From a virus, in the IMG/VR virus record IMGVR_UViG_3300021225_000095, positions 1-28,616 of that record: 28,616 nucleotides of DNA, one strand, 5' to 3'. Shown here piece by piece: positions 1,524 through 7,517 of the stretch. The position numbers were made by a program, and so were the translations under genes. Every line of letters starts with the position of its first letter. Within the stretch, counting starts at the first letter, position 1. Below the pieces are notes generated by a model that did not search any database, had not been told where the DNA came from, and saw nothing but the letters and a program-made list of their open reading frames with translations.

Positions 1524-1838
1524 ATGTACACTTTCAAAGGAACAATCAACCGAGTTACCAACAATGGCATCATTAACATCACATTTGACTTAGGGTTTCA
1601 CATGAAACATACCTCAAATTGCTTATTGCATAATGTAGCAATATTGGGTGACCATGAGGAGAAGGCTGGTAGGATGCTTAGAGAGTTAATGCCAGTAAAC
1701 AGTCTTGTTTATGTTAATAGCGTAAAGCTTGACCAACATGGTCGACCAATTGTCAAGATATTTACATTCTTTGATGATGGGCATTTAGACAAGATCAGCG
1801 TGAATGATTACTTATTAATGGAAAATTTATCTTGGTAA
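1524..1838 (+). CDS. SNase-fold (OB-fold) protein with most catalytic residues missing
   Basis: 104 residues, beta-rich. The pattern resembles staphylococcal nuclease-like domains: an opening hairpin 'FKGTINRVTNNGIINITFD' (4-22), a second strand 'CLLHNVAI' (33-40), a helix 'KAGRMLRELMP' (47-57), then 'VYVNSVKLDQHGRPIVKIF' (62-80) and 'VNDYLL' (93-98). The G73-R74 pair sits where SNase has its catalytic Arg87. However, the Asp expected after the first turn is Asn, and the Arg/Asp/Glu of the 'RLxGIDAxE' segment are absent. It is therefore more likely a DNA- or RNA-binding OB-fold protein than an active nuclease. It lies two bases upstream of the primase-helicase start, which suggests a replication accessory role. 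The fold call is pattern-based and uncertain. Confidence 0.6.
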   Translation: MYTFKGTINRVTNNGIINITFDLGFHMKHTSNCLLHNVAILGDHEEKAGRMLRELMPVNSLVYVNSVKLDQHGRPIVKIFTFFDDGHLDKISVNDYLLMENLSW

Positions 1839-1840
1839 CT

Positions 1841-4339
1841 ATGAACTATCTTAAACTTGGCATCAATACTATTGCTGTAAATGAAAATAAGCAGGCTATT
1901 TTTCCTTGGAAGGTTTACCAAGAGCAAATGGTAACGGAGGAGGAACTAAGCCGTCAAATGGCAGATAATAGGGCAAAAGGAGTGGCTATCATTTGTGGGT
2001 ATGTTAGTGGCAATGTTGAGGTGATTGACATTGATACAAAGTATGAAACGTATGACCTTTGGGAGGCTATTAAAGGAGCGATTCCGCAAGAATTGTATAG
2101 CAAATTACACATCGTAAAAACCCGTTCAAATGGCAAACACCTCATCTATAAATGCGAGGCGATTGAAGGCAATCAGAAGCTTGCACAGCGACTACCGACA
2201 TTGGAAGAGGCAAAGAATAACCCTTCCATCAAATCTTATTGCATTATTGAAACAAGGGGAGAAGGTGGATATGTTGTTGCACCGCCTACGGAAGGCTACC
2301 TCGTTGAACAAGAGGGTATTAATGTTATAACATCGGATGAACGAGAGATATTGTTTGAGATTATGCGGTCGTTTAATGAGATATTTGAAGAGCAAGTAAT
2401 TGAAGCACATCAGAGGCCGTCAACTAAAGAGTATGGAGTTAGTCCATTTGATGACTACAATCGTAGGGGAGATATTGTTGACTTGATGCAGAGGAATGGA
2501 TGGAAGGTAGTTAAAAGGAACTCGGAAAGGATTTACTTTTTAAGACCAGGTAGTCAGGCAGAGCATAGTGGATCGTGGAACGTAGGAATGGGATTATTTA
2601 GCGTTTTTTCGGTGAACACCCCATTTCAAGTGCAGAAAGGGTATAAGTTGTCAGCAGTTTTTGCCATATTGGAATGTGATGGTGATTTCAAACTGGCTGC
2701 ACGAAAGTTGCTTGACATGGGGTTTGGCGAAAAAAAAACATCCTTCGGTGACAAAGTTGAAAGAGAGTTGTTCACCAAAAGGAATGATGGAGCAAGTAAG
2801 GATGATTTGGTTACGATTTTGGTAAAAAAGCACAACAAATCAGTTGAAGATGCTAAGGTGATGGTTGATGAGTTGGATGCTCGGTGGGGGGAAGAGATTT
2901 GCACGTTCTGGGATGTTGATGATAAGGGTGTAGCTTCAATAAATAGGTATAAGTTGCAGGTTTTTTTGACCACAAATGGGGGTTTTCGCTTATACTTCTA
3001 TGATGCATCGTCAACCATTTATAGGTTGATCAGAGTGAAGGATGGGTTTGTGGAAGAGGCGAGTACAGAGCAGATAAAGAGGTTTATTAAGGACTACATT
3101 GACAAGCTACCTGATTCGTTTGATGGTGGGGTTACTCCACAAGACTTACTTGAGTTGATTTATAAAGGTGCTACTGTGCTGTTTAGTGATGCGTTTTTTG
3201 AGTTTTTTGAGCGGGCAGAGTTGAGTTTTTTAAAGGATACCAAGAATGAGGCTTATTTCCCGTTTAAAAATGGGGTGGCAGTTGTTTCCAAAACGGAAAT
3301 AACTCTAAAAAGTTATGGAGAACTTGGCAAGGTAGTCTGGAAGTCGCAAGTAATTGACCATTTCATTGTACTTGAAGAGGATATTGAGTTGAGTAAGATT
3401 GAGTATTTTAGATTTATTGAGAGGATTAGTGATAATGATCAAGAAAGGTATATTTATGCTCTTGGGTTGATAGGCTATTTATTGCACAATTATAAAGACC
3501 CATCACGACCATTCTCGGTGATACTTGCCGAAGAAACAGAGAAAGAAGCCAATGGTGGTGGGACTGGGAAAGGGATATTTGTGAAGGCATTGGGTTACCT
3601 TTTGAATATAGTTCGCGTGGATGGGAAGAACTTCAAATTTGATAAGTCATTTGCGTTCCAAAGGGTTGACCTGGATACAAGGATTCTGGCAATTGAGGAT
3701 ACAAGGAGAAATGTAGATTTTGAGGGTTTTTATTCAATAATTACTGAAGGAATTACCGTAGAGAAGAAGAACAAAGATGAATTGTTTATACCATATAAAG
3801 ATTCACCAAAGGTGATGTTCACAACGAACTACACCATTCCTAACTCTGGGAATCACGCCAAGAGGAGACAAAAAGTGTTGGAATTTAGTAGCTACTTCGG
3901 GCCAACCAGGACACCAGAGGATGAATTTGGTCACAAACTTTTTGATGATTGGGACAAGGATGAATGGAATAGGTTCTATAATTTGATGTTTGAAGCGGTA
4001 CAGGGATACCTTGACTTTGGAGTGTTGGAAGTCAAGTCAAGTGAAAAAATCAAAAGGAAGCAGATCAGGGTGCAGTTCGGAGAGGAGTTTTTGGAGTTTT
4101 TGATGGGGGTATATGAGGAGCAACCAGGTTGGATAAAGTTAGAACAATTATATAACGATTTTATGTCAATGAGTGGGTTTGAAAAGAAGGATTATAGCGT
4201 AAAAAGGTTCACCAAGGGAATTGAAGAATCGTGTTCCATTTTGGGGATCATGTTAAAAAATAAGAGGGATAAAGGCTCTGGAGGGAAAAAGTTATATAAT
4301 TTTAATATTGAAAAAAATACACATGATGAATTTTTTTAA
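1841..4339 (+). CDS. Bifunctional primase-polymerase / SF3 replicative helicase
   Basis: 832 residues from the ATG at 1841. An in-frame TTG at 1832 is possible but lies inside the upstream gene. The N-terminal domain (about 1-190) is a prim-pol module: 'VEVIDIDTKYE' supplies the metal-binding D63/D65, 'SNGKHLIYK' (about 96-104) includes H100, and 'TRGEGGYVVAPPT' (about 138-150) is the nucleotide-binding strand. The middle contains 'KLSAVFAILECDGDFKLAARKL', seen in phage primase-helicases. The C-terminal ATPase has Walker A 'GGGTGKG' (about 572-578), Walker B 'ILAIEDTRR' (about 615-623) and motif C 'KVMFTTNY' (about 657-664), typical of superfamily 3 helicases. The protein would both prime and unwind phage DNA. 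It ends 387 bases before the DnaA domain IV-like gene, with an iteron-bearing region between them. Confidence 0.9.
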   Translation: MNYLKLGINTIAVNENKQAIFPWKVYQEQMVTEEELSRQMADNRAKGVAIICGYVSGNVEVIDIDTKYETYDLWEAIKGAIPQELYSKLHIVKTRSNGKHLIYKCEAIEGNQKLAQRLPTLEEAKNNPSIKSYCIIETRGEGGYVVAPPTEGYLVEQEGINVITSDEREILFEIMRSFNEIFEEQVIEAHQRPSTKEYGVSPFDDYNRRGDIVDLMQRNGWKVVKRNSERIYFLRPGSQAEHSGSWNVGMGLFSVFSVNTPFQVQKGYKLSAVFAILECDGDFKLAARKLLDMGFGEKKTSFGDKVERELFTKRNDGASKDDLVTILVKKHNKSVEDAKVMVDELDARWGEEICTFWDVDDKGVASINRYKLQVFLTTNGGFRLYFYDASSTIYRLIRVKDGFVEEASTEQIKRFIKDYIDKLPDSFDGGVTPQDLLELIYKGATVLFSDAFFEFFERAELSFLKDTKNEAYFPFKNGVAVVSKTEITLKSYGELGKVVWKSQVIDHFIVLEEDIELSKIEYFRFIERISDNDQERYIYALGLIGYLLHNYKDPSRPFSVILAEETEKEANGGGTGKGIFVKALGYLLNIVRVDGKNFKFDKSFAFQRVDLDTRILAIEDTRRNVDFEGFYSIITEGITVEKKNKDELFIPYKDSPKVMFTTNYTIPNSGNHAKRRQKVLEFSSYFGPTRTPEDEFGHKLFDDWDKDEWNRFYNLMFEAVQGYLDFGVLEVKSSEKIKRKQIRVQFGEEFLEFLMGVYEEQPGWIKLEQLYNDFMSMSGFEKKDYSVKRFTKGIEESCSILGIMLKNKRDKGSGGKKLYNFNIEKNTHDEFF

Positions 4340-4374
4340 TATGACATATAGTTAGGTAACATGAGATTTTGATT

Positions 4375-4407
4375 TTAACATCATCTTAACACGATTTTAA
4401 CATCATT
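4375..4407 (+). repeat. Three tandem iterons with 11-bp period
   Basis: Three consecutive 11-mers start at 4375, 4386 and 4397: TTAACATCATC, TTAACACGATT and TTAACATCATT. The 11-bp period puts all copies on one face of the helix, as in plasmid and phage initiator iterons. A fourth copy, TTAACATCATT, lies at 4448-4458. Partial copies TAACATGA lie at 4357-4364 and about 4624-4631. Confidence 0.75.
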
Positions 4408-4533
4408 TTTGATAGCTAAGTGGTTGATAATCAATTCGGATACGCGATTAACATCATTTTTTCTGTTTTTTAGGGTATACCTGTATTTTTTTGGAAATAG
4501 TATATATATAGAAAAGATAGAAAAATGGAAAAT

Positions 4534-4550
4534 ATCGTGTTATCGTGTTA
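4534..4550 (-). repeat. Inverted-orientation iteron pair
   Basis: ATCGTGTTA occurs twice in tandem, sharing one base (4534-4542 and 4542-4550). Its complement, TAACACGAT, is identical to the middle iteron at 4387-4395. A weaker copy (complement TAACACAT) follows near 4566-4573. The pair sits directly upstream of the -7-like element TAATTTTG at 4556-4563, so a protein bound here could also control transcription. Confidence 0.65.
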
Positions 4551-4555
4551 CCTAC

Positions 4556-4563
4556 TAATTTTG
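4556..4563 (+). promoter_or_regulatory. Candidate -7 element TAATTTTG
   Basis: This is an exact match to the Bacteroidota -7 pattern TAnnTTTG. No clear TTTG -33 box lies at the expected distance; the inverted iterons occupy that position instead. Transcription would start about 150 bases before the DnaA domain IV-like gene, leaving a long leader. The match is short, so confidence is low. Confidence 0.3.
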
Positions 4564-4726
4564 GTATGTGTTATTTTCACTTCGTTCACATGAGTTTTTT
4601 GGGTATACCAATACATAACTTGATAACATGAAAATATAATATACATTTAAGAAAAATCAATCAAAAGGTTAAATAAAGGACTACTATGCATTGCAAGGTA
4701 GTATGTAAAACAATTAAACATTTAAT

Positions 4727-5167: not shown

Positions 5168-5192
5168 AGAAAAAAGGCCCTTAATGGGCCTT
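5168..5192 (-). terminator. Rho-independent terminator of the minus-strand mini-gene
   Basis: A perfect 7-bp stem, AAGGCCC (5174-5180) with GGGCCTT (5186-5192), surrounds a 5-base loop. On the minus strand the stem is followed by TTTTTTCTTG, a classic U-tract; on the plus strand the downstream run (AATTCGTTT) is much weaker. The terminator therefore serves mainly the minus-strand peptide gene, although it may also end transcription from the DnaA-like gene. Confidence 0.8.
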
Positions 5193-6371: not shown

Positions 6372-7517
6372 ATGAACGCCACACTACAAACGAACAAGAT
6401 TTACGAGATACTTCAAGAGAGTGACAAACGCATAAGCGTAATGCAAGGAGGATCACGAAGCGGCAAGACTTATAACATTCTTATTTGGTTTATCGTTAAA
6501 TTGCTTCAAGAGAATGGCAAAACGCTTACGATTGTCAGGCAGTCGCTTCCATCCATAAAGGGTTCGGTATTGAGGGACTTTGTTGATATTCTTACAAAGC
6601 TTAACATTTACTCTGAGGATAATCACAACAAGACTGAGCAGATTTACACTTTGAATGGCAATGTGATAGAGTTTGTAAGTGCAGACCAGCCACAAAAGAT
6701 AAGGGGTAGGGCAAGAACGTACTTATTCTGCAATGAGGCTAATGAACTGAGTTATGAGGCTTGGATGCAGTTAATTATGAGGACTGAGGGTAAGATAGTG
6801 ATTGACTACAATCCATCTGATGTTGCCAGTTGGATTTACGATAGTGTTATTCCTCGTGATGACGCAGACTTCAACATCACCACTTTTAGGGATAACCCAT
6901 TCCTCCCTAAAGAACTGGTTGACGAACTTGAAAGATTGAAGGATGCTGATCCAAACTACTGGCAGATTTACGGCTTGGGTGAACGTGGTCTTAGCCAAGA
7001 TTTGATATATACTCATTATCGGACTACGGAGAATATGCCAGAAGAGGGAGAGGTAGTATATGGATTGGACTTTGGGTTCAATGTGCCGAGTGCATTGGTC
7101 AAGGTGATGTTCGTGGAGGGTGCTGCTTATGCCCAAGAAATGCTGTACGAAACAAGGTTGACCACAAATGATTTGGTAGATAGGCTAAAGGTTCTTAATA
7201 TTGACCCGTACGATGAGATATTTTGTGATGCAGCCGAGCCAAAAACTATTGAGGAACTCGCAAGAAACGGGTTCAATGCTAAACACGCTAATAAGGATGT
7301 GACTGAGGGAATAAGGACTGTAAAGGGTACTCCTTTGTATATTCATCAAGATAGCGTAAATTTACTAAAGGAATTGAAGAATTACCGTTGGAAAACGGAT
7401 AGAAATGGCAATAAACTTGATTCACCAGTAAAGTTTGGTGACCACATACTTGATGCCTTACGTTATAGCATTTTTAGTAAGTTAACAATCCCTAAGATAA
7501 CTTGGGGAGCAATATAA
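6372..7517 (+). CDS. terL: Terminase large subunit
   Basis: 381 residues, a complete packaging motor with ATPase and nuclease. The ATPase domain has Walker A 'GGSRSGKT' (26-33), Walker B 'YLFCNEAN' with catalytic E122 (117-124) and 'DYNPSD' (145-150). The RNase H-like nuclease domain carries acidic metal ligands D233 ('GLDFGF'), D286 ('FCDAAEP') and D357/D361 ('GDHILDALRY'). This is the Terminase_3/PBSX-like organisation. The enzyme cuts concatemers and pumps DNA into the prohead through the portal encoded next. The start follows AACTAAGATAA, the same leader as the first gene of the window. The next gene begins just after its stop. Confidence 0.95.
   Translation: MNATLQTNKIYEILQESDKRISVMQGGSRSGKTYNILIWFIVKLLQENGKTLTIVRQSLPSIKGSVLRDFVDILTKLNIYSEDNHNKTEQIYTLNGNVIEFVSADQPQKIRGRARTYLFCNEANELSYEAWMQLIMRTEGKIVIDYNPSDVASWIYDSVIPRDDADFNITTFRDNPFLPKELVDELERLKDADPNYWQIYGLGERGLSQDLIYTHYRTTENMPEEGEVVYGLDFGFNVPSALVKVMFVEGAAYAQEMLYETRLTTNDLVDRLKVLNIDPYDEIFCDAAEPKTIEELARNGFNAKHANKDVTEGIRTVKGTPLYIHQDSVNLLKELKNYRWKTDRNGNKLDSPVKFGDHILDALRYSIFSKLTIPKITWGAI

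Follow-up and report, generated by a model that had tools for sequence, protein, structure and literature searches.

Self-loading initiator helicases of the D5 type, with or without a fused primase, are represented by Rep of SaPI5 and Cch2 of SCCmec (PMC7581432). The C-terminal domain of Cch2, a relative of SaPI5 Rep, binds direct repeats located downstream of its own gene and requires the iteron AAGTG (PMC7581432). P4 alpha, as described in PMC4234260, unites a primase, a helicase and a C-terminal winged helix in a single polypeptide and binds origin repeats. ORF904 of plasmid pRN1 consists of an AEP Prim-Pol, an SF3 helicase and a C-terminal winged helix, and its origin, located downstream of its own gene, is a large stem-loop without iterons (PMC4234260). 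Which iterons a self-loading initiator helicase recognises is known in a few systems.

The window analysed here is the whole 28,616-nt stretch of a viral record (IMG/VR, IMGVR_UViG_3300021225_000095). Its region 4350-4635 is, with a probability of about 80%, an iteron replication origin that would be read by a Prim-Pol/D5-type helicase, directly downstream of whose gene it lies. Judged from comparison of sequences, the repeats very probably constitute the phage replication origin, in which repeat sequence changes between phages and spacing is fixed. Most likely, this code is read by the C-terminal tail of the neighbouring primase-helicase and not by the DnaA-like protein. The features of the locus are as follows.

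1832-4339, plus strand: Prim-Pol (AEP), D5/SF3-type helicase (DUF5906) and C-terminal winged helix in one protein of 835 aa (Pfam), proposed initiator
4199-4243, plus strand: codons of the winged-helix recognition helix, residues 790-804 (helix 370-384 in the AF2 model of residues 421-835)
4250-4306, plus strand: codons of the beta-hairpin wing, residues 807-825, including residues that separate iteron classes (AF2 model, alignments)
4356-4365, plus strand: degenerate outer iteron GTAACATGAG (GTAACATGA), at the position of the relatives' outer copy, 19-20 bp before the trio
4375-4384, plus strand: iteron 1 of the 11-bp trio, TTAACATCAT
4386-4395, plus strand: iteron 2 of the trio, TTAACACGAT
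4397-4406, plus strand: iteron 3 of the trio, TTAACATCAT
4424-4434, no strand: perfect palindrome TTGATAATCAA between trio and pair
4440-4448, plus strand: iteron 1 of the pair, ATACGCGAT, overlooked by the earlier note
4448-4457, plus strand: iteron 2 of the pair, TTAACATCAT (fourth copy)
4460-4533: AT-rich stretch (74 bp, 78% AT) with direct and inverted iterons on either side, candidate unwinding element
4534-4543, minus strand: inverted iteron ATAACACGAT (form TAACACGAT)
4542-4551, minus strand: inverted iteron GTAACACGAT (form TAACACGAT), 8 bp from the other inverted copy
4623-4632, plus strand: distal iteron-like copy ATAACATGAA (ATAACATGA), also present in class A relatives L001, L002, L007, L009 and L018
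4727-5146, plus strand: stand-alone DnaA domain IV-like protein of 139 aa (PF08299), probable accessory factor

The earlier note had described three 11-mers repeated with an exact 11-bp period, a fourth copy and a core inverted twice. All of them were found: TTAACATCAT at 4375, TTAACACGAT at 4386 and TTAACATCAT at 4397, the fourth copy (TTAACATCAT) at 4448, and minus-strand copies at 4534-4543 and 4542-4551. The trio starts about 35 bp 3' of the primase-helicase stop codon and occupies similar positions in most relatives; the pair is spaced by 9 bp (end-of-core positions 109 and 118). This repetition is far above chance. NTAACAYSAW has 7 matches in 387 bp as against a mean of 0.1 and a maximum of 2 in 2000 first-order Markov resamplings, none of which reached the 11-bp trio score of 7. 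Seven further matches occur over the remaining 28.2 kb, and the palindrome TTGATAATCAA is the sole exact copy in the whole window. The AT bias, which had been called strong, does exist but is moderate, with 73.9% AT in the intergenic region as against 64.3% in the window. By AT content, stretch 4460-4533 belongs to the top 3% of 74-bp segments, and the window contains less stable stretches than this putative unwinding element. Search of 4340-4726 for DnaA boxes (TTATNCACA) yielded neither TTWTNCACA nor TTATCCACA within one mismatch. In two relatives (L019, L021), a perfect DnaA box TTATCCACA closely precedes the DnaA-like gene, 284-292 bp from the primase stop. GC skew has one sign, with no change near 4.4 kb; since the record is a fragment with a single skew sign, origin mapping by GC skew is uninformative.

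Both flanking genes are of the kind that had been proposed. The upstream product matches PF09250 (Prim-Pol, 3.8e-13) and PF19263 (DUF5906, 2.6e-8), with GGTGKG invariant in its helicase core. The downstream product matches Bac_DnaA_C (PF08299, E=4.6e-14), and consists of domain IV only, without an AAA+ domain. Its fold matches 3pvp, the M. tuberculosis DnaA-DNA complex, with a TM-score of 0.90 by target length, and it carries the DHTT signature; the 139-aa protein is therefore predicted to probably still bind DnaA-box-like DNA. The DnaA-like gene is followed by a symmetric hairpin AAGGCCCTTAATGGGCCTT at 5174-5192, which scored as a terminator on both strands. Elsewhere in the window, a TET-associated glycosyltransferase is encoded at 406-1233 (PF20691, 1.5e-32; phrog_842), hinting at modified cytosines in phage DNA, and a ParB-like protein (phrog_620, 2.5e-8) at the left end, 18-416.

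Scanning with the primase-helicase retrieved 73 viral loci, to which a second scan with the distant member L057 as query added essentially no further contigs. The GenBank phage matches MW202828 and MW202711 were rejected as relatives, as they do not share the architecture. The intergenic region 3' of the primase gene measures 130-560 bp in most loci, and the next gene in most of them codes for a DnaA domain IV-like protein of 127-163 residues. Comparison of the intergenic regions revealed that 11-bp phasing is conserved in most loci. In most relatives, an outer copy is followed after 19-20 bp by three copies with 11-bp spacing; beyond a spacer come two copies 9 bp apart and a T-tract. This geometry, 20-11-11-[30/31, 42, 53 or 64]-9, is kept across clades with quite different iterons. 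The spacer between trio and pair (30/31, 42, 53 or 64 bp) corresponds to about 3, 4, 5 or 6 helical turns, and the palindrome inside it is kept in most relatives, with swap of its A/T centre. Some clades (L036/L066/L073, L050-L054, L064) have a reduced trio or none. Since dozens of related phages keep this geometry, the array is strongly supported as an origin-type one, as the earlier note had supposed. Relatives that retain both genes and lack the repeats had been expected to speak against this; such relatives do lack the sequence TTAACAYSAT, but not the architecture. Six loci (L001, L007, L010, L025, L026, L048) also contain variable numbers of GGGGTTTTTGG-type G-rich repeats, located between the inverted iterons and the DnaA-like gene. 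These repeats are common to distant clades, and the window has one chance-like match to them, inside the primase gene.

The earlier note had expected the phage to use a code of its own. The iterons do differ from the DnaA box, but, unexpectedly, the code varies from phage to phage within the family. Forms found across related loci include TTAACATCAT, GGTACGCGAT, TGTAGTCCAT, GTTGCACGAT and TGTACCACTT, distributed in part as follows.

TTAACATCAT (class A): window, L001, L002, L007, L009, L018
GGTACGCGAT or GGTACGTCAT: many close relatives and more distant clades
TGTAGTCCAT or TGTAGCGCAT: L026 clade
GTTGCRCGAT: L027
TGTACCACTT: L034
TGTTCCACTT: L042
AACCGAT: L057

Between classes A and B, the iteron core ACRYSAT is constant and the 5' flank varies (TTA versus GGT). 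Iteron copies are dispersed over 100-250 bp on both strands and largely change together, except that class A phages retain ATACRCGAT as the first iteron of the pair. Such concerted change of dispersed copies on both strands points to a protein acting in trans. In L125, a Bacteroidetes MAG, the gene for a related helicase is followed at about 7143-7400 by tandem AAGTGATAAAGTGATAAAG and inverted TATCACTTTGTCACTTT, resembling the AAGTG iterons of SCCmec Cch2.

The code is tracked by the primase-helicase. In a clade with 85-94% identical primases, classes A and B are separated perfectly by its residues 808, 809, 813, 815, 816 and 821, and loci with mixed iterons (L004, L039, L011) have mixed class residues. 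Iteron type correlates with the wing at r=0.87. Given the helicase core, partial Mantel correlation of iteron distance with the wing/recognition segment is 0.52 in 42 loci (p 0.001) and 0.75 within the close clade (p 0.0005), permutation p-values that do not remove dependence on a possibly single A/B switch; the corresponding values for the DnaA domain IV protein are -0.28 and 0.02. Among 20-aa windows over the whole primase, the wing scores highest (0.89 and 0.82; median 0.23), as compared with 0.45 for the best window of the DnaA-like protein and 0.03-0.59 for neighbouring genes. Along the primase-helicase, the signal is strongest in the last 35 residues and has a second, lower maximum at 521-550. 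Residues 531, 535 and 537 (window 3422-3442) also co-segregate with iteron class (R/N/Q versus K/S/K); this patch, 531-537, possibly represents a further DNA contact or collar residues.

Because iterons and wing codons lie only about 70-400 bp apart, linkage can contribute to this coupling. As a guard against mere linkage, synonymous divergence was controlled, and the wing signal persisted (partial r 0.76-0.83). Linkage as sole cause was rejected, since synonymous divergence of the same region gives -0.25 once the wing is known. Joint transfer of primase tail and array as a simple recombination block was likewise discarded: the L007 tail (4229-4328) is about equidistant from A (0.71) and B (0.70), and the L007 array is A-like (0.78 versus 0.61 against B relatives). 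The A/B code switch comprises one to three independent events and may be single; class A forms one group in the C-terminal tree and is unresolved in the tree of the primase body.

The C-terminal part was modelled with AF2 (residues 421-835, 415 residues, mean pLDDT 80.6). At the C terminus of the model lies a winged helix, formed by helices 350-361 and 370-384 and strands 387-393 and 399-405 (model numbering). The class-separating residues are located in its beta-hairpin wing, and the recognition helix is essentially constant between classes A and B. Iteron binding by this C-terminal domain is predicted from co-variation of wing and iteron. The whole 421-835 model served as query of the fold search, the winged helix being searched as part of it, and the best match is SaPI5 Rep (7ola_C; Z 17.4, 332 residues, rmsd 5.4), in an alignment extending to model residues 396-399. 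The C-terminal domain of P4 alpha is not among the 50 fold matches listed, which does not exclude likeness. A profile built from the primase alignment matched no PDB sequence.

Could the 139-residue protein read the iterons as DnaA boxes peculiar to the phage, as the earlier note had implied? Its gene is adjacent in most relatives, its fold is truly that of DnaA domain IV, DHTT signature included, and the 11-bp pitch resembles that of closely packed DnaA sites, such as those in E. coli oriC. However, coupling of this protein to iteron type vanishes once helicase divergence is taken into account. Loci with the same iterons can have DnaA-like proteins of only 57-60% identity, and loci whose iterons differ can have proteins of 85-87% identity; L002 has class A iterons, yet in its DnaA-like protein it shares 82% identity with a class B phage. 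No recognition-helix residue of the DnaA-like protein separates classes A and B, and its DHTT(V/I)IH signature stays constant while the code changes. Moreover, three loci (L057-L059, contigs of 47-64 kb that may be incomplete) keep the array without a PF08299 match. The coupling tests together with these arrays led us to reject the DnaA-like protein as code reader, and the iterons are improbable as its boxes.

The array might instead be an operator without origin function, through which the primase-helicase or a phage repressor regulates the flanking operon. Initiators often autoregulate via their own iterons, the array is located upstream of the DnaA-like gene, and the downstream transcription unit starts close to the inverted iterons. 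On the other hand, promoter matches are at chance level only, and in L058 and L059 the whole module has the opposite orientation with respect to the genes: the pair comes first, and the trio follows the palindrome. A direct set, an AT-rich stretch and an inverted set following a Rep-type gene also fit an origin better. An operator appears about as unlikely as DnaA boxes. Lower still is the probability of a large hairpin of the pRN1 type, recognised by the Prim-Pol/helicase protein and with the repeats secondary. pRN1 shares the domain order and has a stem-loop origin downstream (PMC4234260), and the intergenic region of the window folds somewhat better than shuffles (z -2.1, a mild excess). 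Nevertheless, repeat spacing and palindrome are what is conserved, the iterons change in concert, and complementarity is fully accounted for by direct and inverted iterons.

We return to the proposed iteron origin read by the primase-helicase. Its initiator would be the 835-residue Prim-Pol/D5-type helicase, binding the iterons with its C-terminal winged helix. Reading of the shared core ACRYSAT is probably the task of the recognition helix, and reading of the variable flank (TTA versus GGT) that of the wing. Copies on the same face, three at 11 bp and two at 9 bp, about whole turns apart, would assemble the helicase, and the palindrome probably serves to bend DNA or as a site for a host factor. 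Opening would then occur in the AT-rich stretch that separates direct from inverted iterons, helicases would load from both sides, and the Prim-Pol domain would prime. The DnaA domain IV protein, which looks like an optional accessory, likely has a host-directed or accessory role and would take no part in reading the code.

In this family, many initiator tails and iteron codes are naturally paired on one scaffold that hardly varies; the DNA-recognition code of a replicative helicase thus becomes testable by exchange of few residues. The array also provides a simple sequence signature by which origins may be located in uncultured phages whose replication proteins are of the Prim-Pol/DUF5906 kind. 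A tempting inference is corrected as well: a DnaA-like gene beside repeats does not necessarily encode their reader. Only tentatively, with somewhat less than even confidence, do we regard these loci as a natural set of reprogrammed origins, with a fixed 3+2 scaffold, one initiator family, repeated code switches made partly via wing residues rather than the recognition helix, and a DnaA domain IV protein gained or lost beside them as a second, host-directed factor.

Compared with bacterial oriC and DnaA, the locus likewise has phased short repeats beside a gene for DnaA domain IV. In contrast to oriC, the intergenic region of the window contains no DnaA box, the neighbouring protein is devoid of AAA+ domain III, and the code is uncoupled from it. 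As far as the repeats and their co-variation indicate, this is not a DnaA-type origin, but one of the self-loading-initiator kind, in which the helical scaffold is fixed and the code can change. The crenarchaeal plasmid pRN1 has the same domain plan, whereas the conserved feature of the window is a phased iteron array instead of a stem-loop. With P4 alpha, the locus shares a single protein with primase, helicase and C-terminal winged helix and an iteron origin. The primase of P4 alpha is, however, of the Toprim (DnaG-like) type; here an AEP Prim-Pol (PF09250) is N-terminal.

SaPI5 Rep and Cch2 resemble the present system in their helicase, C-terminal DNA-binding domain and iterons directly 3' of the gene, and a D5/SF3-type helicase core, a C-terminal winged helix and iterons directly 3' of the gene are present here; specific binding of the iterons by the C-terminal domain and autonomous replication driven by region and protein would be predicted. 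Iterons of some relatives (TACCACTT) resemble the Cch2 repeat TACCACTTAAT, and CACTT (that is, AAGTG) iterons occur in phages L034, L036 and L042 and in L125; phages of the family probably infect Bacteroidota. Unlike in SaPI5 Rep and Cch2, an AEP Prim-Pol is fused to the helicase, a DnaA domain IV gene is adjacent, and the 3+2 geometry is fixed, with a central palindrome and several iteron codes within one family. On these grounds, the family is assigned, by prediction, to the SaPI-Rep/Cch2/P4-alpha type of origin.
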